Position numbers and translations under genes: made by a program. Positions 8,515-53,067 of a DNA stretch of 64,000 bases are shown in pieces. The stretch is from positions 124,001 to 188,000 of the forward strand of contig CAJXPB010000002.1 of the NCBI GenBank assembly GCA_913057905.1. Reading direction: 5' to 3'. The stretch is from an uncultured Pseudomonadota bacterium. Its GTDB lineage: Bacteria > Myxococcota_A > Bradymonadia > Bradymonadales > Bradymonadaceae. The first letter of the stretch is position 1, and every line of letters begins with the position of its first letter. The notes beneath the pieces were generated by a model that saw nothing but the letters and a program-made list of their open reading frames with translations, was not told the origin of the DNA and did no database searches.

Positions 8515-10127
8515 TCGGCTTGTCGGCCGTGCTCGAGCGCCGCACCGATGAAGCTCTCAAACAGCGGGTGGGCGTCGGTCGGCTTGCTCTGGAATTCGGG
8601 GTGGAACTGACAGCCGATAAACCAGGGATGGTCCGACAACTCGATCATCTCGACGAGGACGTCGTCCGGCGAGATACCGGTGATGCCCATGCCCGCCTCT
8701 TCGAGCTGCTCTCGGTAAGCGTTGTTGAACTCGAATCGGTGGCGGTGGCGCTCGCTGATCTCGTTTTTCCCGTAGATCTCGGCCACGCGGCTCCCCGGCG
8801 CCAACTCACAGGGGTAAGCCCCCAGGCGCATGGTGGCGCCCTTGTCGACCACGTCCTCCTGGTCGGGCATCAGCGAGATGACCGGACTTTCGGCCTCCTC
8901 GTCAAATTCGAAGCTGTTCGCGTCTTCCATGCCCGCCACGTTTCTGGCGTATTCGACCACGGCCAACTGCATGCCAAGACAAATGCCGAAGAAGGGGATG
9001 TCGTTTTCGCGCGCGTATTGGATGGCCTCGACCTTGCCGTCCATGCCGCGCTCGCCAAATCCACCCGGCACCAGGATGCCCTGGCAGTCGTCGAGCTTCT
9101 CTGCCACGTCGTCGGCCGTCAGCTCCTGGGAGTCGACAAACTTCAGATTGACCTTGGCCTTGTTGGCGATGCCGCCGTGCAACAGCGCCTCGTTCAGCGA
9201 CTTGTAGCTGTCGGTCATGTCGACGTATTTGCCGACGATCCCGATGGTGCATTCACCCTCGGGGTTTTTGATGCGATCGACGATCTGGTCCCAGCGACTC
9301 AGGTCCGCCTTGCGCGACCAGATGTTCAGCGCTTCGGAGAGTTCTTCGTCGATGCCCTGCTCGGCCAGTGCGCTGGGCACCTCGTAGATCGATTCCTCGT
9401 CCTTGGCGGTGATGACCCGGTCGACGGGCACGTTACAAAACAGGGCGATCTTTTCTTTGATGTCGGAGGTCAGGTCGCGGTCCGACCGGCAGACCAGAAT
9501 GTCGGGCTGGATGCCGATCTCGCGCAGGGCCTTGACCGAGTGTTGGGTCGGCTTGGTCTTCATCTCGTCGGCGGCCTTGATGTAGGGCACCAACGTGACG
9601 TGCATGCAGACCGAGTTCTGGGGGCCCAGGTCCAGGGTCATCTGTCGAATCGCCTCCATAAACGGAAGCGACTCGATGTCGCCGACGGTGCCGCCGATCT
9701 CCACAAACGCGATGTCGGCGTCGCCGCAGGCATCGAAGACCCGCTGTTTAATTTCATCGGTAATGTGGGGAATGACCTGCACGGTCGTGCCCAGATATTC
9801 GCCGCGGCGCTCTTTGCTGATGACCGCGTCGTAGACCTGACCGGAGGTGCAATTGTTCGCCTCGGTCATCGTCGCCGAGGTAAACCGTTCGTAGTGGCCG
9901 AGATCCATGTCGGTCTCGGTCCCGTCCTCGGTCACAAAGACCTCGCCGTGCTCGAAGGGATTCATCGTCCCCGGATCCACGTTGATGTAGGGATCGAGTT
10001 TGATGAAGGTCACCTTCAGACCCCGGTTTTCCATTAGGGCTCCGAGGGCCGCGCCAGTGATGCCCTTGCCGAGGCTCGAGATCACCCCGCCGGTGATAAA
10101 TACGTATTTCGTCTGATGATTCGCCAT
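8511..10127 (-). CDS. pyrG: CTP synthase
   Basis: 538 residues from the ATG at 10127; the open frame reaches further up, but the family starts at [16 protein letters not shown]. PyrG converts UTP to CTP using ATP and glutamine. The amidoligase domain (about residues 1-265) carries the P-loop-like [10 protein letters not shown] and the [11 protein letters not shown] motif. The class I glutaminase domain (about 290-538) carries GICLGMQ with the nucleophilic Cys, and HPEFQSKP with His and Glu. A near-consensus promoter lies about 220 bp upstream. Confidence 0.97.
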
Positions 10128-10348
10128 GATTCTCCAGCAATTACAAAATCGGTAGCCGGCGCTCGGTCCACACCACTCCCACAGGACCACTCAACAGCAA
10201 TACCACAGAGCACTCACTCGTCGATCACCGGACGAATGAACGTGCGGATACCGCGGTCTGGTATGCAGAAGGGCGTTGTCGAAACGCCCGTCGGTTCGCA
10301 TTCGGTCAGATCACGTGTCCGCCGATTTGGGACGGCAGACGGAATCGC

Positions 10349-43177: not shown

Positions 43178-43594
43178 TTACCCTCTCAACACCTCGCGCC
43201 AGCCGGCCTCGGCGTCGAAAAACGCCTGAATCAACCCGGCCTTGCCCCGGGCCTCCAGCCACGCATGCCCCTCCAGGCCGCCCCCTTTTCGAAACCCCAC
43301 GACGACCTCCGACTCCACACCCCTGCGCGCCAGCCACACCCTGGAGGCCAGCGCCCTGTGCAGACACCGCGTGCCGGGCACCCAACGGCTGATCCGTTCG
43401 GCCAAAAACCTCGCCCGCTCGACCAGCCGTTCCCTCTGCTCACCGTCTACCGCCGCGTCCTCCTCCCCGAAGCGCTCCGCCCACGCCGAAGCCTGATCCA
43501 AAAGAGGCTGAGTCCCCTTGGTCCACGACAGGACGTCGAAGGCCACCAGCAACCCGCCCATCTCCGCGTGTTCGAACATCCCTTTGAGCGTCAT
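43178..43594 (-). CDS. Lasso peptide B2 leader peptidase (transglutaminase-like)
   Basis: 138 residues of the McjB C-terminal type, a papain/transglutaminase-fold Cys protease that removes the lasso leader once it is delivered by the RRE protein. The core motif is RCLHRALASRVWLARRG (catalytic Cys77) and EGHAWLE (His110). N-terminal region is short, as expected for the split B1/B2 arrangement. Its ATG overlaps the kinase gene stop by 4 bp; last gene of the cluster. Confidence 0.88.
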   Translation of the reverse strand: MTLKGMFEHAEMGGLLVAFDVLSWTKGTQPLLDQASAWAERFGEEDAAVDGEQRERLVERARFLAERISRWVPGTRCLHRALASRVWLARRGVESEVVVGFRKGGGLEGHAWLEARGKAGLIQAFFDAEAGWREVLRG

Positions 43595-44535
43595 GCCGAG
43601 TCTCCTTCATCCGTGTCATCAAAAAGTGCATTCCACATCGCATCCACACGCTCGGCCGCGCCGATCGCCTCCGGGTCGTATCGATACGCCCATACTTTCG
43701 TCTGCTTGACCATACGCCCCACATTCCGAAACCGCCGCTTCTTCCACGCCCGCGGCGCCTCTTCAAAATCGAAGGTCTCCGAAAGCACCGCCTGTAGCGA
43801 TTCGGCGCCCCTCAACTCCACCAGCTCTCCCGATCCCTCGACGCCCTCGGTCGGCTGCAGCACCACGATGTCACCGAGTTCGCAATCCTCCCGGGCGACC
43901 TTCTCGTCGCCAAACCGCATCCAGTGTTTCTTGAGCTCCGGATGAATCTGCCCCGACTCCACAGGACGCGCCTCTCCAGGCACCGGCGGCTCGATCCGAA
44001 GCGCCGGCCCACCGTGAAACAGCGTGCCCGACTCGGTGTCGACCACCGCCATCTCGTCGGCCACCAGCTTCGCCCCATGCCGATCCATATCGTGATAGAT
44101 CGTCGTCGACTTGCCCGCCCCCGTGGTCCCGATGACGAGCACGCCGTTATTAGTCGCGGCGAGCGCGCCCGCGTGCAGGGCGACTCTCTCTTGGTGCGTC
44201 ACCGCCGAGTAAAGCGGCAGGATCTTGCGCTCGAGCATGTGATCGACGGGCACCGACCACGTCAGATCGGGCACCAACTGATAGCGGATCTCGTTGTCAT
44301 CCAACCTCAGCTCGAAGCCCCAGCCCCCAAAACCAAGCGGCAGCCGTTCTTCGGTCAAAACACCCCAGGCGTCGTCGTCGATTCGGTCCAGAAGACCGTC
44401 GTCTTCGACGATCTCCAACTCCGCGGATTCGTCGCCGGACCGTGCCGGCATCGGAAGATCCACGTCAGCGTCGATCGCCAGCCCAAAAGCCGATACTCGC
44501 CGGCCCCGCCTGATGCGCTCCCGCTGTGCTCTCAC
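43591..44535 (-). CDS. HPr-kinase-like protein, probable lasso peptide kinase
   Basis: 314 residues. The C-terminal part resembles the HprK catalytic domain: ALHAGAL (about 119-125), Walker A GTTGAGKS (136-143), LVADEMAV (about 157-164). In lasso clusters such as that of paeninodin, a homolog phosphorylates the C-terminal Ser of the precursor; the precursor here ends in Ser. It overlaps both neighbours by 4 bp (PqqD-like start side, B2 stop side), so it belongs to the cluster. It has no PTS/HPr neighbours. Confidence 0.85.
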   Translation of the reverse strand: MRAQRERIRRGRRVSAFGLAIDADVDLPMPARSGDESAELEIVEDDGLLDRIDDDAWGVLTEERLPLGFGGWGFELRLDDNEIRYQLVPDLTWSVPVDHMLERKILPLYSAVTHQERVALHAGALAATNNGVLVIGTTGAGKSTTIYHDMDRHGAKLVADEMAVVDTESGTLFHGGPALRIEPPVPGEARPVESGQIHPELKKHWMRFGDEKVAREDCELGDIVVLQPTEGVEGSGELVELRGAESLQAVLSETFDFEEAPRAWKKRRFRNVGRMVKQTKVWAYRYDPEAIGAAERVDAMWNALFDDTDEGDSA

Positions 44536-44831
44536 GACTCATCCTCGACCAACAGTCCGCGATCGACCGCATCTTCCAGAAAGGCAATCACGTCTTTCTC
44601 GGCCCGCTCGCGCTCGACCTCGAATTCGGCGAGCACGTGGTCGACGATGCCATCCAACTCGGCACCGTTTTTGACCGCCTTCCACACCGACTCCCCGACG
44701 GGGTTCAGCGAAAAGTACAGGTCCGCTTCCAGATCCAGGATCACCAGCTCGCCGTCGATCTCCTCGGCGATGGTGTCGGTCGACGGCCGAAGCCGCGTCT
44801 CTTTGGTGATTTCGATATCGTTGTCGCTCAT
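44532..44831 (-). CDS. PqqD-like RRE protein (lasso B1)
   Basis: 99 residues of the PqqD fold: RLRPSTDTIAEEIDGELVIL, DLEADLYFSLNPVGESVW and EKDVIAFLEDAVDRGLLVE. In lasso clusters this protein binds the YxxPxL motif of the leader and presents the precursor to B2 and the cyclase. Overlaps the kinase gene by 4 bp. Confidence 0.9.
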   Translation of the reverse strand: MSDNDIEITKETRLRPSTDTIAEEIDGELVILDLEADLYFSLNPVGESVWKAVKNGAELDGIVDHVLAEFEVERERAEKDVIAFLEDAVDRGLLVEDES

Positions 44832-44929
44832 AAAGGGGCCTTACGGGGCCAGTCACTACATAGGTCACTTGCAAACTAGAAAGGTAGAACCGAACCGGGG
44901 CAACTGCAAATTGGGATGGGCGATTGCCC

Positions 44930-46618
44930 CTACGACACAAACTGGCCCTTCTGGATTCGATGGACCGTTTTGGGATTCAGCCCGGAGGGGATCCGGTGGC
45001 CCACATACAGTATCGACAGGTCGTAGTTGTCCTCGATCCGCTCGAAGATCCGCTGGCACAATTCGTCTTCCAGATCCGCGGCCAACTGATCGACTACCAG
45101 CACGTCCGGATCTCGAAGAAGCGCCCGCGCCAGAGCCACACGCTTTCTCTGGCCGCCCGAGAGCTTGCTGCCGCCCTCGCCGACGTCGAACTCCAGCCCG
45201 TCGGCGTGCCCCTCCACAATCTCATCGACCGCGCTGGTGTGACATGCCCGCTCGATCGCGTCGTCGGAGGGCACCTCCGCAAGCCCAAAGAGGATGTTAT
45301 CGCGGATGGTGCCGTGAAACAGCGCCACCTCTTGACCGACCGTGCCGACCCGCGAGCGCCACTGTTTGACTGCCAGCTCCGGCAGCGGCACGCCGCCGGC
45401 ACGCACTTCGCCCTCGTCCGGGTCGATCAACCGAGGGAGCAGCCGCGCCGTCGTACTCTTGCCCGCTCCCGAAGGCCCGGTGAGCGCGATCCGATCCTGC
45501 GGCTCGATCGCCATCGACACCCCATCGACCGCGGGATCATCGTCCTCACCGAATCGAACGGTCACGTCGTCGTACTCGATCCGTGGGACGCCCTGGTCCA
45601 GCTCGACCGGGTCGTCGGCCTTCGGCAAATGAGCATCGGCCTCGAACAGCGCATCCAGTCGCTCCTGTGCGACCTGCGCGCGATACCAGCCAAAGACGAT
45701 ACTCGGCGCCTTGCGCACCGGACCCAGGCTTCGCGACACGTAAAAAACAAAGGCCACCAGCGTGCCCAAGGTCAGCGTGTCGTTCATGACCATCTGGCCG
45801 CCCACGCCCAGGCACAGCAGCACCACGATCGCCACCGAGAAGTTCACCAGCGGCAATAGCTGCGATTGATACCTGGTGTGCTCCAGCTCGGCGGCCTTTA
45901 ACTTTCGTCCCGCCTCATCGATGCGATCTTCGAACCACGACTCGGCCCCGTAGACCTTGACCGACTCGATGTTCGACATCGACTCCAAAAGCGCCGAATA
46001 GACCTTTCCCCGCTGCTCGGCACTCTCCCTCGACAGCGGCCGGACCTTGTCGTGAAACACCCACGCCGTCAGCGCCAAGGCCGGCAGCGCGATAAACGCC
46101 AACAACGTCAGTTTAGGCGCCATGACCACTAGGATCACCGCCGTCGCCAGCACACCGACGGCAAAGTCGACCACCGACGGAAGGACCCCCGTATACAATT
46201 GTTTGAGAGAATACGTATCGAACTGAGCCCGCGCGACGTGGTCTCCCACATCGCCGGACTGATGGTACCCCAACGCATAATCCTGCAGGGTCTCAAAGAC
46301 CCGATTGCGCGTCTCGAGCCAAAACTCCTCCCCCATCTTGGCCGCCCGCCACTTGCCCCAAAACTGTGTCACCGACGCCCCGGCATAAGCCGCCACCCCG
46401 ATACCCACATACGGCCAAAGCAAATCCGGCCGACCCGCCCGGATGACGTCGTCGACCACCAACTTGGTGATGTAGGGGGATACGAGGCCTAGGAGGGAGG
46501 CCGCTGCCAACGTAAGAATCGAGAACAGGAGCCTGCGAAAAATTCCACCGGGGAGCTCGGATCTGGTCAGCGCGTCCTTAGAAATGGGATCTAGCTCGTC
46601 GCGAAGACCAATACCCAC
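44930..46618 (-). CDS. ABC transporter (permease-ATPase), lasso peptide exporter candidate
   Basis: 562 residues, half transporter: six membrane helices (about 28-300) and an ATPase domain with Walker A GPSGAGKS (381-388), Q loop GQEVALF (428-434), signature LSGGQ (486-490), Walker B VLVVD (506-510) and H loop GHR (540-542). The residue after Walker B, normally the catalytic Glu, is Gln511 (VVDQLAADLE). Lasso D proteins of this type export the peptide and confer self-immunity. GTG start 7 bp after the precursor stop. Confidence 0.88.
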   Translation of the reverse strand: MGIGLRDELDPISKDALTRSELPGGIFRRLLFSILTLAAASLLGLVSPYITKLVVDDVIRAGRPDLLWPYVGIGVAAYAGASVTQFWGKWRAAKMGEEFWLETRNRVFETLQDYALGYHQSGDVGDHVARAQFDTYSLKQLYTGVLPSVVDFAVGVLATAVILVVMAPKLTLLAFIALPALALTAWVFHDKVRPLSRESAEQRGKVYSALLESMSNIESVKVYGAESWFEDRIDEAGRKLKAAELEHTRYQSQLLPLVNFSVAIVVLLCLGVGGQMVMNDTLTLGTLVAFVFYVSRSLGPVRKAPSIVFGWYRAQVAQERLDALFEADAHLPKADDPVELDQGVPRIEYDDVTVRFGEDDDPAVDGVSMAIEPQDRIALTGPSGAGKSTTARLLPRLIDPDEGEVRAGGVPLPELAVKQWRSRVGTVGQEVALFHGTIRDNILFGLAEVPSDDAIERACHTSAVDEIVEGHADGLEFDVGEGGSKLSGGQRKRVALARALLRDPDVLVVDQLAADLEDELCQRIFERIEDNYDLSILYVGHRIPSGLNPKTVHRIQKGQFVS

Positions 46619-46625
46619 ACCTTAT

Positions 46626-46799
46626 TCAAGAGCCGTTAAGAGTATCGCCCACACTGCCAGGCTGACCTGAAATAAGACTGCTGAGATCTCCATCAACGTT
46701 CAACGAAGGTGCTGCATAATTGCGTTTCCCGCACACGGGAGTATCGTTCAAATCTAGCTTTCCGCGTTCAGTCCTTTTTTCGCTAGTAGAGGACTTCAT
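46626..46799 (-). CDS. Lasso peptide precursor (57 residues)
   Basis: A short gene between cyclase and exporter. AGGAG lies 6 bases before the ATG (46799). The leader (1-44) carries the RRE recognition motif Y28-x2-P31-x-L33, then the conserved spacing to Gly37 and to Leu42 at -3; this matches the lasso leader pattern YxxPxLxxxG. The predicted core is GQPGSVGDTLNGS (45-57): Gly at position 1 and Asp at position 8 give an 8-residue macrolactam, with tail TLNGS. Position -2 is Ile instead of the usual Thr. The last residue is Ser, the site that lasso kinases modify. Context and motif make the call strong; product unproven. Confidence 0.87.
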   Translation of the reverse strand: MKSSTSEKRTERGKLDLNDTPVCGKRNYAAPSLNVDGDLSSLISGQPGSVGDTLNGS

Positions 46800-46859: not shown

Positions 46860-48737
46860 TCATGTTCGAATTCTTTCATCCCGCTGGCAAGCGTACAGCC
46901 AATTCACAGTCGCGACAACCTGCCACACCGAGTAAATGCCCAGTTGAAACGACAGATCGGCCGCAGACGCATCCGCCGCCATTTCGAGTGACCTGAGTGA
47001 ACTGTCGAATGCCTGCCTGTCCAGAAACTTATCAGACAACAGATTCATCTCTTCACCTACCCCTTCGCGAAAAGCACCAATCCCAGAGATAATTCCGGAA
47101 TTTACAAGGGGGTGGTAGTTCGTATGATCGGCGCTGTTCAGTATTTCGTCGGGAACTAGCCCCGCTACTGCCCTTCTCAAGATGGCTTTCTGCAGCCCTC
47201 GGCACTCTAGATCTCCCTCGGAAATCTCACTTGAAAGATTCCATACTTCAGGGTCTAGGTAAGGCATCAAAAATGTGGCGCCGTATCGCCTGGCGCGCTT
47301 TGCCATGCTTAAATAGAATTTTTCTACTGACCACTGCTGATTCTCTTCGAATAGTTTCTCGATCCGACCCTGAGTACCAAGTTCGCCAGTCTCGTACGCC
47401 GCTTGCGAATGCCGATTACGTCTCCGAACCCATGCCTCGTTGTTGACCCATGGTCGAGACAGCCGATGGGGTATGCTCTGAGTGTAGTTCAAAAACAACC
47501 CTTCCCTTCCAATGATTGAAGCGCCCTGGAATAACAGTTGGAATGCCAAGTTATTCATCCGCTGAAACTGGCTGCTGCGAAAGAGCACTTCAAGCATCTT
47601 CCTCAAGACCCCCCTCCAAATTGAATCACTCCGGTTTGGACGCTTCTCGAATAGACGATCTGCGCCAACCCCTAAGAACACACCATCGCATTGATGGAAC
47701 TCCTGCATCTCTGGCGCAAAAAGGTCCCACCAGAATTCATCCACCAAGTACCTTGGTCCCCACGCGACGGTACGGCTCTTTACCATCGGGTCAGGCAAGG
47801 CCGCGCTGATATCCACTTCAGCATGACAAGAACCAAGGTGATCGACTGCCAATCTAATCCAGTGGGACTCATCCGCTTCGGGGAAATCCTTGCACACCAT
47901 CGAGCCCGTTCGTATCGAGCTTTCGCAAGACAGAGCCATCTCCGAATGTATCGCAGCCAGAGACGTCGAATCGAGACCCCCGCTGAGCGAATGCCATCCC
48001 GAAAAGCTCTGATACTGCTCAACCGATTCCTTCAGCCGATGGAGAAGCTCTTTCGGAGTTGCACTGTTGCCATCCGACGAAGAGGGTTTCCAATACCGAC
48101 GACGTTCGAACGCAAGAGCTGGGCAATCGACTGAAACGCATTCAGACGGTCGGATTCGTTGGAAATTTTCGAAGAAGTAACTTGTGTTCGCAGAGATTCC
48201 AGAGGCGATATTCTCAAGCAATAGCTCGTAATCTACGGAAACCTTGCCGGATGATTCAGTCAACAATCGATTTGGATCCGACCCGATGAAGAGCTCACCA
48301 GACTCTCGATGTATGAATAACGGTATCTGACCAAAGTAATCGCGAAAGATCTCAAGATTCCGGTTGGCATGATTCCAAACGACGCCACTCAAAGGTCCTC
48401 GTCGAGCACCTAAAACCTGATCGAGTCGTTTCGGCCTAGATCTAACCAGCTCGGTCAAGACCGGAAAACTGTCTTCCGCTACGAGAGCGCCGGAATTCGA
48501 TCCACCCTGGGGATTTCCGACAACCAATGCGAAATCATTGCCGTTTTGCGTGAAACCGACAGGCCATGGTGATTCTCCATCATATAGTCTGACGGATATT
48601 CGCTGACCTTCCGATATCGAAATATTGAGCAGTTCGCGTGAGTCCTCATCGGTTCCGATGCCCCACTGTCGACATTGTTTAGGACGATTTTTGTTTGAGC
48701 GACGGTTACTATAATGTACTATGAAGTCGTGAGTCAT
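46860..48737 (-). CDS. Lasso macrolactam synthetase (asparagine-synthase-like cyclase)
   Basis: 625 residues. The N-terminal half is a glutaminase-like domain without a Cys nucleophile; the C-terminal half is an ATP-pyrophosphatase of the AsnB fold with PP-loop SGGLDS (252-257), the DESHW region and GVGADRLF near 355. Such proteins adenylate the Asp/Glu side chain of the core and close the ring. GC content (about 48% in sampled lines) is far below that of the exporter and B2 genes (about 70-75%), suggesting separate acquisition with the precursor. No good Shine-Dalgarno at the ATG. Confidence 0.87.
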   Translation of the reverse strand: MTHDFIVHYSNRRSNKNRPKQCRQWGIGTDEDSRELLNISISEGQRISVRLYDGESPWPVGFTQNGNDFALVVGNPQGGSNSGALVAEDSFPVLTELVRSRPKRLDQVLGARRGPLSGVVWNHANRNLEIFRDYFGQIPLFIHRESGELFIGSDPNRLLTESSGKVSVDYELLLENIASGISANTSYFFENFQRIRPSECVSVDCPALAFERRRYWKPSSSDGNSATPKELLHRLKESVEQYQSFSGWHSLSGGLDSTSLAAIHSEMALSCESSIRTGSMVCKDFPEADESHWIRLAVDHLGSCHAEVDISAALPDPMVKSRTVAWGPRYLVDEFWWDLFAPEMQEFHQCDGVFLGVGADRLFEKRPNRSDSIWRGVLRKMLEVLFRSSQFQRMNNLAFQLLFQGASIIGREGLFLNYTQSIPHRLSRPWVNNEAWVRRRNRHSQAAYETGELGTQGRIEKLFEENQQWSVEKFYLSMAKRARRYGATFLMPYLDPEVWNLSSEISEGDLECRGLQKAILRRAVAGLVPDEILNSADHTNYHPLVNSGIISGIGAFREGVGEEMNLLSDKFLDRQAFDSSLRSLEMAADASAADLSFQLGIYSVWQVVATVNWLYACQRDERIRT

Positions 48738-48909: not shown

Positions 48910-51900
48910 ATGAATAACTTGATGTTCATAAAAGACAAAATTTTCGAGAAGCGTCCTAGGCGGAGACTTCTTGCGGCCACTGTTACCGTCGCAATGGGTG
49001 TTTTCGCAATTTCGTGCTCTTCGGACCCGAAGTCTGATGCGGCCGAACACGCTCCTTCTGCAGAAAGGACGACTCATTTACAAAAAGCGGACGGGGCCAG
49101 ATCTGATCAAGAAGACGACAATGGTGGCTATACCGATCCGGCTGAAGCGCCCAACGATAACCACATCTTGTCGTCGAATCTCACCCAAACAAGAGGGTTC
49201 GACTCTCGACATGGGGAAAATGAGTTTAGTGCCACTATCATTGGGCTGGGAGATGTCACGGTGAGGTCCGATGGGTCGACAACAGTTACACCAACCCCCC
49301 TTTATGATCCCTCAAGCGGGATGGACTCCAGCGAAAACTGGAAATTCTCTACGAAATTGGCCACTGTCGCAGCCTCCGGAATTAGTGGAGAAACACAACT
49401 GCTCGATATTGATAGACCAGCCGATACTTTCGTTGCACCGGATGGATCGCTAACTCTTTCTTACGCCGAAGGGCTTTCCGTCCACTACAGGAACTTCGGC
49501 ACCTCACTAAAACAGGCCATTACGATCTCTGAGCGCTTCTCCGATTCGAAGGATATCAGATTGCGGTGGGATATCCATCAATCGATGGAAGCCAAAATTC
49601 GTCCAAACGGCGGCGCGACCATTCGGTCTAATGAGACTGACAGAATAATTCTTGAGTGGACCCCTCTTAGGGTATTTGACTCAAACGGTGACGAAGTTGC
49701 CGCGAAGATGAAGATAGAGTCTGAGCACCTTGTGTACTCTATAGATAGCCGCGAGGCCGATTTTCCAATTAAGATCGACCCGCTCGCTCAGAATCCGAGC
49801 TTCCAAGACTCCGGGAGTCAAGCATCATCTCTTTTCGGGCAAAATGTTGCCTCCGCGGGCGACGTAGACGGTTACGAAGATCTGCTCGTCAGCCAAACCG
49901 GTTTTGACGACGGCGCAACAAGTAGTGTTGGAAAGGCTTACTTGTTTTTGGGTTCATCGTCGGGCACGGCGTCCACTGCGAGCTGGACTACTAAAGGCAC
50001 TACCCTTGAAGAATTTTACGGGATTGGCACCGGGATAGGGGATATCGACGGGGACGGAAACGACGATTCAGTCATTTCTGGATTCCGATGGATTTCCGGA
50101 AACCAAGATTTAGGTCAAGTCAAACTCTTCCTCGGCGGAGCCACGGCTACGGGCCTCAATACCTCTGCTGCAGAGACCATCTCAGGATCACAGAGCGATC
50201 AGTTCTTCGGCAGATCAGTCGCGGGAGGGGACTTCAATTGCGACGGCACGCCTGACGTGGCAGTGGGTTCACCAGGCTACGATGGTTCAGCAGGTGGTGG
50301 CTCCGGCAAAATTGAAATTTTCTTCGGAAACACCTCTTCTCCCTATTTACCAAATTCGGCATCTTGGACCTACGAGAGCTCGAAAGCCGGAGCGAATCTT
50401 GGCCAAGACATCGAGAATGCAGGTGATGTGAATAATGATGGATGCGATGATCTCATTGCAGGCGGTGGACAGTATCCCAACAGCTCTGGCACGCCATCTG
50501 GGATTGCGGTGCTTTTCTACGGGAGCAACTCCGGAATCTCTTCCACGCCTGACTGGTCGAGGGTGGGGCAAGCAAATTCGCAGTACGGTTTACGGATCTC
50601 CCCTGCGGGTGACGTGGACGGAGACGGTTTCGATGACATCGCGGTTGGCGCCCAAGGCGCCAACGCAGGAGATGGGCTCGTCGAGGTATTCTATGGCAGC
50701 ACTTCCGGGCCATCCTCTTCCCCGGACTGGTCAGACAGCGGCAGCAATGGAGCCAAACTTGGAAGTGGTTTGGCCAGTGGAGATGTCAACGGTGACGGAA
50801 CTCCCGACCTAGTTGTTGGAGCCACCGATGAAACTGAACCTTCCTCCGGAAGCCGATTCGGATCGGTCAGGCTTTATCTTACGGGGCCCGGCCCTTCTCC
50901 TTCCCTGTCGAGTTCTCCAAACTGGCAGGCCTACAGCAGTAACGTGTCTTCCCTATACGGATTCACAGTAGCCACGGTGCGGGGAAGTCAGACCGCAGGT
51001 GGAGAAGACGACATATTTGTCGGAGCTCCATTGCACAAGAATATGATGGGGCAATCGAGCGCTGGTAGTGTATTCGGATATCAGGGGCAACCCACCTGTT
51101 ACATCGGAGGTACTTACTACGCAGCTGGAGACACCAATCCAAACAATGCCTGTGAAGTCTGCACGCCGTCACAAAACAATACCTCTTGGTCAACGAAGTC
51201 AGTTGGAGCGACATGCGATGACGGAAATGCTTGCACAGAGAACACGACTTGCAATTCAAGTGGACAGTGCACTGGCAGCCAGGTCAACTGCGACGACGGG
51301 AATCCGTGCACTCAAAATCAGTGCGACCCCCAAATGGGATGTTCTTATCCCCCCGAGCCACAAGGAACGGCTTGTACTGATGACGGGAAAACCTGCACCA
51401 CAGACCAATGCGACGGAAACGGTGCCTGCACCCATTCGGTAACTAGTGGCTGCCTAATCGACGGCTCCTGTGTAAGCCAAGGTCAGTCGGATCCTTCAGC
51501 TCCGTGTCTTCAGTGTGTCCCGTCCCAGAGCACTACCAGCTATTCAGCGGTAAGCGCTGGCACCCCTTGCAATGACGGATCCTACTGCACTGTATCGGAC
51601 ACCTGCAACGCCTCGGGGCAATGTACGGGTTCGCCGCGAAACTGTGCTGATACAGTGGATCCCTCGATTGCCGCCTGCAACAATAGTTTCTCATGCGACG
51701 ATGTGCTGGATAAGTGCCGCTCATCACAACCCAAATCTGACGGTACGAGTTGCGACGATGGAAACGCATGTACCTCGATGGAGACATGTCAGTCAGGTGT
51801 TTGCCAAGCTGGTTCCACAGTCACGTGCTCCGACCCCGGAACCTGTCAATCCGCGTCCTGCAATCCTGATACCGGGACGTGCGAAACGACTAACGACCCA

Positions 51901-53067
51901 GACGGCTCGACTTGCGAAACTGGCGATGCGTGCACAACAGGCGCTTGTCAGTCCGGAAGTTGCATGACGCAAGGACCTGTCGACTGCGACGACATGAATC
52001 CATGCACCGCCGACTCGTGCGACAGTCAAACTGGTTGCCAGAACTCGGATGTCCCCGACGGCACAGAGATCGGCACGCCGTCATGCAACGACAACTTCAA
52101 CCTGTTGCAGTCGGCGACTTGCCAGGACGGCGAGCCGCAGGATCCGACGATTCAGGACTGCGGAAACTACAAGTGCTCAAGTGACCCGAACCCGAATTGT
52201 CCCACGGCCTGTACGGAGGATTCCGACTGCAAGGACGGCAGCTTCTGTACGGACGTGCCGGGATCGAACGATGGCGACCTGGAATGTGTGGGCAACCGGC
52301 CACCGACTGCGGATGCCGGGCCCGACCAGGGTGGCTACAGTAAGAACGAGCGCGTACGGCTGGATGGCACGCAAAGTAGCGACCCGGACAATGACATGCT
52401 GAGTTACACATGGTCGCTGGTCGATGCGAACTGCCCGGATGCCGGTGAATCGGCCGACCTGGCTGGGTTGCAACAGGCAATCAACGACCAAGACCAGTGG
52501 GACCCGACGGCGGCAAATCCGCAGTTCAGCGCTCCCGCGCCGGATTGCGAAAACGAGGAGCTGACGTTTGAGCTAGAAGTCTCGGATGGCACCTACACGG
52601 TGACCGACGAGGCAGTCGTCAGCTACGGCACGTGCAACAATCCGCCGAACGCGGTGGTCGCCGGTCAGCCGGCGACGGCCGAGTGGGGATCGAGCGTCAC
52701 GCTCGATGCCAGCAACTCGCAGCCCGGTTGCGGTTCTTCGCTCGAGTACTCCTGGAGCTACATGCCGCAGGAGCCGGAGCTGACTACGTCGGGGAGTGAA
52801 TCGCTGAGTGTGACGCTTCCGGACATCTGCCGGGAGGAGAGCACGACGTACACCTTCAACCTGACGGTCTTCGACGGTGTGCAAAACAGCGAGCCGTACG
52901 ACCGGGATCTGTTCGTGCCGGCCAACGGCCCCTGCGACGATGGCGGCGACGTCTCGGGCTCGGGCGGCTGTTCGTCGACCGGCAACAGCGGCGGACCCAT
53001 CGGCGGCCTGGCTGCCATGCTCTTCGCCGGCGGACTCGCCGCACTTCGACGGCGCCGACGCAACTAA
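48910..53067 (+). CDS. FG-GAP / Cys-rich / PKD surface protein with MYXO-CTERM-like tail
   Basis: 1385 residues. Signal peptide with lipobox-like AISC (Cys ~36). About residues 300-720 hold seven FG-GAP (integrin-like) repeats with Ca-binding loops: DVDGYEDLLV, DIDGDGNDDSV, DFNCDGTPDVAV, DVNNDGCDDLIAG, DVDGDGFDDIAVG, DVNGDGTPDLVVG. Residues ~730-1130 are Cys-rich repeats (CDDGNACT, CSGxGQCTG types). Two PKD-like domains follow. The end is GGCSS...GGLAAMLFAGGLAALRRRRR, a MYXO-CTERM sorting signal. GC is about 50% for most of the gene but about 65% in the last kilobase. Confidence 0.85.
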   Translation: MNNLMFIKDKIFEKRPRRRLLAATVTVAMGVFAISCSSDPKSDAAEHAPSAERTTHLQKADGARSDQEDDNGGYTDPAEAPNDNHILSSNLTQTRGFDSRHGENEFSATIIGLGDVTVRSDGSTTVTPTPLYDPSSGMDSSENWKFSTKLATVAASGISGETQLLDIDRPADTFVAPDGSLTLSYAEGLSVHYRNFGTSLKQAITISERFSDSKDIRLRWDIHQSMEAKIRPNGGATIRSNETDRIILEWTPLRVFDSNGDEVAAKMKIESEHLVYSIDSREADFPIKIDPLAQNPSFQDSGSQASSLFGQNVASAGDVDGYEDLLVSQTGFDDGATSSVGKAYLFLGSSSGTASTASWTTKGTTLEEFYGIGTGIGDIDGDGNDDSVISGFRWISGNQDLGQVKLFLGGATATGLNTSAAETISGSQSDQFFGRSVAGGDFNCDGTPDVAVGSPGYDGSAGGGSGKIEIFFGNTSSPYLPNSASWTYESSKAGANLGQDIENAGDVNNDGCDDLIAGGGQYPNSSGTPSGIAVLFYGSNSGISSTPDWSRVGQANSQYGLRISPAGDVDGDGFDDIAVGAQGANAGDGLVEVFYGSTSGPSSSPDWSDSGSNGAKLGSGLASGDVNGDGTPDLVVGATDETEPSSGSRFGSVRLYLTGPGPSPSLSSSPNWQAYSSNVSSLYGFTVATVRGSQTAGGEDDIFVGAPLHKNMMGQSSAGSVFGYQGQPTCYIGGTYYAAGDTNPNNACEVCTPSQNNTSWSTKSVGATCDDGNACTENTTCNSSGQCTGSQVNCDDGNPCTQNQCDPQMGCSYPPEPQGTACTDDGKTCTTDQCDGNGACTHSVTSGCLIDGSCVSQGQSDPSAPCLQCVPSQSTTSYSAVSAGTPCNDGSYCTVSDTCNASGQCTGSPRNCADTVDPSIAACNNSFSCDDVLDKCRSSQPKSDGTSCDDGNACTSMETCQSGVCQAGSTVTCSDPGTCQSASCNPDTGTCETTNDPDGSTCETGDACTTGACQSGSCMTQGPVDCDDMNPCTADSCDSQTGCQNSDVPDGTEIGTPSCNDNFNLLQSATCQDGEPQDPTIQDCGNYKCSSDPNPNCPTACTEDSDCKDGSFCTDVPGSNDGDLECVGNRPPTADAGPDQGGYSKNERVRLDGTQSSDPDNDMLSYTWSLVDANCPDAGESADLAGLQQAINDQDQWDPTAANPQFSAPAPDCENEELTFELEVSDGTYTVTDEAVVSYGTCNNPPNAVVAGQPATAEWGSSVTLDASNSQPGCGSSLEYSWSYMPQEPELTTSGSESLSVTLPDICREESTTYTFNLTVFDGVQNSEPYDRDLFVPANGPCDDGGDVSGSGGCSSTGNSGGPIGGLAAMLFAGGLAALRRRRRN

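Follow-up and report, generated by a model that had tools for sequence, protein, structure and literature searches.

The closest described system is the bsf lasso peptide cluster of Bradymonas sediminis FA350, a delta-type bacterium of the Bradymonadales, which was cloned and assayed by Duan et al. in 2023 (PMC10368454). This cluster is flanked by genes for an FG-GAP protein and ribosomal proteins, and its kinase, BsfK, phosphorylates Ser3 of the core peptide in a reaction that needs the leader on the precursor and is greatly improved by B1 (PMC10368454). BsfK is strict for core position 3: Thr2 is never marked, Thr is accepted at the site itself, and the S10A and T11A substitutions of its substrate BsfA, which ends in Asp, leave phosphorylation unchanged (PMC10368454). 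It also requires the D186-D187 pair, in which Ala substitution showed that D187 matters, while the leader peptidase BsfB2 cleaves the unphosphorylated precursor too (PMC10368454). Duan et al. reported Ser or Thr at core position 3 to be conserved in bsf-type precursors, and the mature bsf product was never detected (PMC10368454). Similarly, S3 is the residue marked by LppK, an HprK-like RiPP kinase that acts on linear peptides (PMC13381572).

Here, we analysed a stretch of 64,000 nucleotides (the window) that carries a complete lasso peptide gene cluster on its minus strand, transcribed in the order C-A-D-B1-K-B2, the precursor, the RiPP recognition element (RRE), the Cys peptidase and the asparagine-synthetase-like cyclase all being present. 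The cyclase C (46860-48737; 625 aa), with an SGGLDS motif, occupies the position of bsfC and matches PF00733 (5.9e-17) and the lasso cyclase model NF033535 (6.4e-13). It is followed by the precursor gene A (46626-46799; 57 aa), preceded by an AGGAG ribosome site, and by the ABC exporter D (44930-46618; 562 aa; PF00664 and PF00005), which is 44% identical to the D protein of the B. sediminis locus (L044). B1 (44532-44831; 99 aa) is a PqqD-like RRE (PF05402, 1.1e-17; 64.6 bits against a cut-off of 23.4) with 41% identity to BsfB1 over 76 aa. The leader peptidase B2 (43178-43594; 138 aa) retains Cys77 and His110, matches PF13471 (2.3e-15), Transglut_core3/lasso_biosyn_B2 (53.5 bits, cut-off 33) and, above its cut-off, NF033537, and is 64% identical to BsfB2 over 75 aa. 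Between them lies K (43591-44535; 314 aa; GTG start), which we assign as a BsfK-type precursor kinase from its 33% identity to BsfK over 216 aa (2e-29), an alignment of 17 kinases and a structure model; it has H121, the Walker A motif GTTGAGKS (K142, S143) and D160-E161 (codons 44053-44058). The stop of B1 and the start of K overlap by 4 bp (GTGA), as do the stop of K and the start of B2 (ATGA), so the coupling of the three genes is real on both sides. A preliminary description of this locus, which had noted an HprK-like protein with this Walker motif coupled to the RRE and B2 genes, and a precursor ending in NGS, was correct in its coordinates, motif, overlaps and precursor terminus. Codon-position GC of K, B1, B2 and D resembles that of the neighbouring fusA, and third-position GC is lower in C and A.

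Beyond B2 lie rpsL, rpsG, fusA and tuf, and the gene for an FG-GAP surface protein (48910-53067) diverges from the C side, so that the cluster sits, in the bsf manner, between an FG-GAP protein and rpsL-rpsG-fusA. Bsf-type B2 genes occur in 16 of 57 genomes of the class, all of them from the family of the window, with K adjoining. Nearly all of the family loci fetched have rpsL beside the cluster, and most of the loci that extend to the far side are bounded there by an FG-GAP protein. The window cluster is thus, judged by sequence, orthologous to bsf and has been inherited at a constant chromosomal site. The genome of B. sediminis is itself in our set (G002), and its proteins are 100% identical to the published bsf ones. 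Finding a lasso cluster that includes a kinase in a delta-type bacterium had been expected to reveal a new lineage; this novelty falls away, since such a Bradymonadales cluster was already assayed in 2023 (PMC10368454) and the window cluster is its ortholog. A sister genome (G003) was of no help in dating the change in the window cluster, as its incomplete assembly yielded neither a kinase nor a cyclase nor rpsL. An alignment of 12 B2 sequences was too diverse for a scan of contigs with a B2 profile, and the smaller alignment used instead returned six loci, in G008 (a Lujinxingiaceae MAG), in G015 and, for the rest, in Acidobacteria and Luteibacter.

Several other arrangements were observed among the genomes compared. 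In G008, G010-G012, G014, G015, G019 and G020, cyclase-precursor pairs lie apart from a lone B2 (L108, L109, L110, L112, L113, L117-L119 and L122-L124), and the kinase is usually single too, which suggests that in those family genomes several lasso peptides share a single processing module acting in trans. In genome G009, an entire Val(-2)-type precursor (DYEPPALEYLGELGEVVRGAASDVYD...) forms the in-frame C-terminal end of a 550-aa lasso cyclase ORF (L047:6608-8260, minus strand), a cyclase-precursor fusion that may contain an internal Met start. In another family of the class (f4), precursors that have Ile(-2)-Gln(-1) and Ser3 lie beside an exporter (L115, L116, L125 and L126, in G038, G037, G034 and G036), and DD-type kinases are found on other contigs of the f4 genomes G033, G034, G037 and G038. 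Finally, in a plasmid lasso cluster of Thalassobaculum, two HprK-like kinase genes flank the cyclase (L071:5992-6918 and 9207-10157).

The precursor of the window consists of the leader MKSSTSEKRTERGKLDLNDTPVCGKRNYAAPSLNVDGDLSSLIS and a predicted 13-residue core, GQPGSVGDTLNGS (46629-46667), the shortest of the 25 cores compared (the window and 24 relatives). Its signature, Y(-17), P(-14), L(-12), I(-2), G1 and D8, is that of BsfA position for position, and the leader has the YxxPxL motif at -17 to -12 and the Ile at -2 of the bsf type. Asp8 is the sole acidic residue of the core and falls within positions 7-9, where an Asp or Glu is expected for ring closure, which points to a Gly1-Asp8 ring. 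A search of 659 kb of fetched DNA with the pattern Y..P.L.{9}I.G.{6}D gave 15 hits, every one inside a precursor, and 2.56 Mb of shuffled window sequence gave none. Moreover, among 79,619 peptide windows, a matrix built with the window left out gives the top score to its precursor (9.8 bits; the next scores 1.4), and the same score makes it the most divergent member of the group (the others score 24.7-60.7). On these two tests we reject a chance ORF, although the precursor has no match in the domain and family libraries searched, and a HMMER profile of the relatives without the window fails to single it out. A value of 3.3e-10 obtained with the window's own sequence included is disregarded.

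The best matches of K are lasso kinases, with 14 bsf-type kinases at 67-123 bits, paeninodin-type kinases at 33-39 bits and true HprK at 32 bits. The preliminary description had proposed a phylogeny of K against the paeninodin-type kinases and HprK; in this tree the paeninodin-type kinases form a clade (100/99) that excludes K, true HprK stand apart (100/100), and K sits on a long branch among the bsf-type kinases. The deep branches are weak, and K is BsfK-type in a best tree that is not significantly better than trees joining it to the paeninodin-type kinases (AU p 0.18) or to HprK (AU p 0.13). In domain searches K scores as HprK-like, far under all curated cut-offs (Hpr_kinase_C, 22 against 33; HprK_rel_A, 37 against 200). 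Its AlphaFold model (pLDDT 88) has the fold of the HprK/PEPCK superfamily. PEPCK entries outrank HprK among the structure matches of this model, which aligns with PEP carboxykinase over 275 residues (Z 17), nearly its full length including the N-terminal part.

Which residue would K phosphorylate? Among 24 relative precursors with Ile or Val at -2, position 3 is Ser or Thr in 19 (binomial 9e-12 against the Ser plus Thr frequency of the tails, ignoring relatedness), and all 24 have a Ser or Thr within positions 3-5, the first being at position 3 in 19, at position 4 in four and at position 5 in one. In the window, position 3 is Pro and the first hydroxyl residue is Ser5; since five relatives also lack Ser or Thr at position 3, this residue is typical of bsf-type precursors rather than defining. 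The relative with its first hydroxyl at position 5 (GGYGSGGD, genome G008) has the same layout as the window (GQPGSVGD). Because residue 3, the target of BsfK, is Pro, the phosphate would most likely be on Ser5 (codon 46653-46655), the favoured candidate site. We think it probable that K belongs to the BsfK type but has shifted its specificity off core residue 3, to Ser5 or, by convergence on the paeninodin type, to the C-terminal Ser, along with a D-to-E change in the catalytic pair. As to the target, ring Ser5 is our first guess, the C-terminal Ser13 the second, and a loss of phosphorylation the third.

The reading that we tentatively prefer, without holding it firmly, is that this bsf-type cluster of a Bradymonadales relative uses B1-assisted phosphorylation by K of a leader-proximal hydroxyl in the ring, most likely Ser5. 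The make-up of the cluster, its synteny, the leader signature, Pro3, D-E and the kinship of K rest on sequence, whereas ring closure, Ser5 as the site and an active K are inferred. By analogy with the bsf biochemistry, from which the order of the steps, the dependence on B1 and the cut after residue -1 are carried over, B1 would bind the YxxPxL leader and present the precursor to K, which would move phosphate from ATP onto a leader-proximal hydroxyl within the future ring before cleavage. B2 would then cut after Ile(-2)-Ser(-1), C would join Gly1 to Asp8, closing the ring, and D would export the product. Against Ser5, BsfK is strict for position 3, so a shift to position 5 is not guaranteed, and the precursor offers an alternative in its C-terminal Ser.

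This C-terminal Ser13 (codon 46629-46631) was the site proposed in the preliminary description, in which a precursor ending in Ser and the kinase gene were taken to agree independently on a C-terminally phosphorylated lasso peptide. What stands is that a delta-type bacterium has a lasso cluster whose HprK-like kinase is dedicated to tailoring. The independent agreement does not: K is BsfK-like, BsfK modifies residue 3, and Ser ends only one of the 24 bsf-type relatives, which is chance level at a Ser frequency of 8% in the tails. The terminal Ser is thus weak evidence for C-terminal phosphorylation, which can still be envisaged because the usual Ser/Thr3 is Pro in the window. K would then have converged on, or retained, a paeninodin-type activity, a rival that we regard as unlikely, though the most serious one. 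The precursor ends in Ser just where Ser/Thr3 has been lost, all four paeninodin-type reference precursors (Priestia, Paenibacillus cellulosilyticus, Sulfitobacter and Thalassobaculum) end in Ser (Fisher p 2e-4 against the bsf type, with few sequences and relatedness ignored), and the AU test tolerates K in the paeninodin-type group. However, kinase similarity and synteny both favour BsfK, whose substrate ends in Asp, and the leader of the window has Ile(-2), whereas the Bacillota references have Thr(-2).

Less likely still is that phosphorylation is being lost, with K decayed or merely structural and the peptide unmodified. Of the motif residues H-G-G-G-K-S-D-D, K retains all save the last, the position of D187 in BsfK, where Asp becomes Glu; the window kinase is the only one of the 17 bsf-type kinases aligned to have Asp-Glu in place of the catalytic Asp-Asp. 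In this cluster both residue 3 of the core and the second catalytic Asp are altered, unlike in the other 16 kinases and in 19 of the 24 precursors. Together with the long branch of K, this means that the kinase may be weak or inactive; also in favour of a loss, BsfB2 cleaves a precursor without phosphate. Against decay, the K gene is intact over 314 codons with a codon-position GC close to that of its neighbours, and the protein keeps the His, the Walker glycines, the Lys, the Ser and the first Asp and models well. Moreover, D-E also occurs in some other HprK-like proteins, so it need not mean a dead enzyme, and we expect K to be active.

Thr9, just beyond the ring, offers another hydroxyl, and BsfK tolerates Thr at its site; this residue is however distant from the leader-proximal site, and the lack of effect of S10A and T11A in BsfA also speaks against it, which makes Thr9 a very improbable target. 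It is hardly credible that K should be a genuine HPr kinase, concerned with sugar control and in the cluster by chance: its Walker A region is HprK-like and the AU test leaves an HprK grouping standing, but its score against the HPr(Ser) kinase family model (19.1 bits, cut-off 240), its separation from HprK in the tree and its context, overlapping both B1 and B2 and with orthologs throughout the family in the equivalent cluster, speak strongly against this identity.

A kinase gene and a terminal Ser need not, then, mean C-terminal phosphorylation, as the sole assayed member of this lineage is marked beside the leader. By lacking the usual target of the kinase, the window cluster offers a natural experiment, and its comparison with bsf could reveal how leader, B1 and kinase jointly select a residue, which would help to add phosphates to engineered lasso peptides. 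If the specificity has indeed moved, the phosphorylation site of a lasso kinase would drift along the peptide inside one orthologous locus.

Among known systems, the window cluster shares with bsf (and its relatives pcy, mmv, llb, lss and lvt) the gene order C-A-D-B1-K-B2, the chromosomal site, the leader signature, the Gly1-Asp8 ring predicted here and a BsfK-type kinase. It differs in having Pro at core residue 3 instead of Ser/Thr, D-E in its kinase instead of D-D, Ser instead of Arg at -1, a core of 13 residues instead of 21, and a C-terminal Ser; it also has no nucleotidyltransferase gene, as is the case for llb, lss and lvt. With the paeninodin-type clusters (PadeK, ThcoK, SyanK and PsmK) it has in common an HprK-like kinase in a lasso cluster, split B1 and B2 genes and a precursor ending in Ser (here NGS), but its kinase falls outside their clade in the best tree, its leader has Ile(-2) and not Thr(-2), and its gene order differs. 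The linear polyphosphorylated peptides (LPP) also combine an HprK-like kinase, LppK, which marks the leader-proximal S3, with a discrete RRE (PMC13381572). In contrast to the window cluster, these Bacillota systems have no macrolactam cyclase, use an SpI-type leader peptidase instead of B2 and make a linear product.
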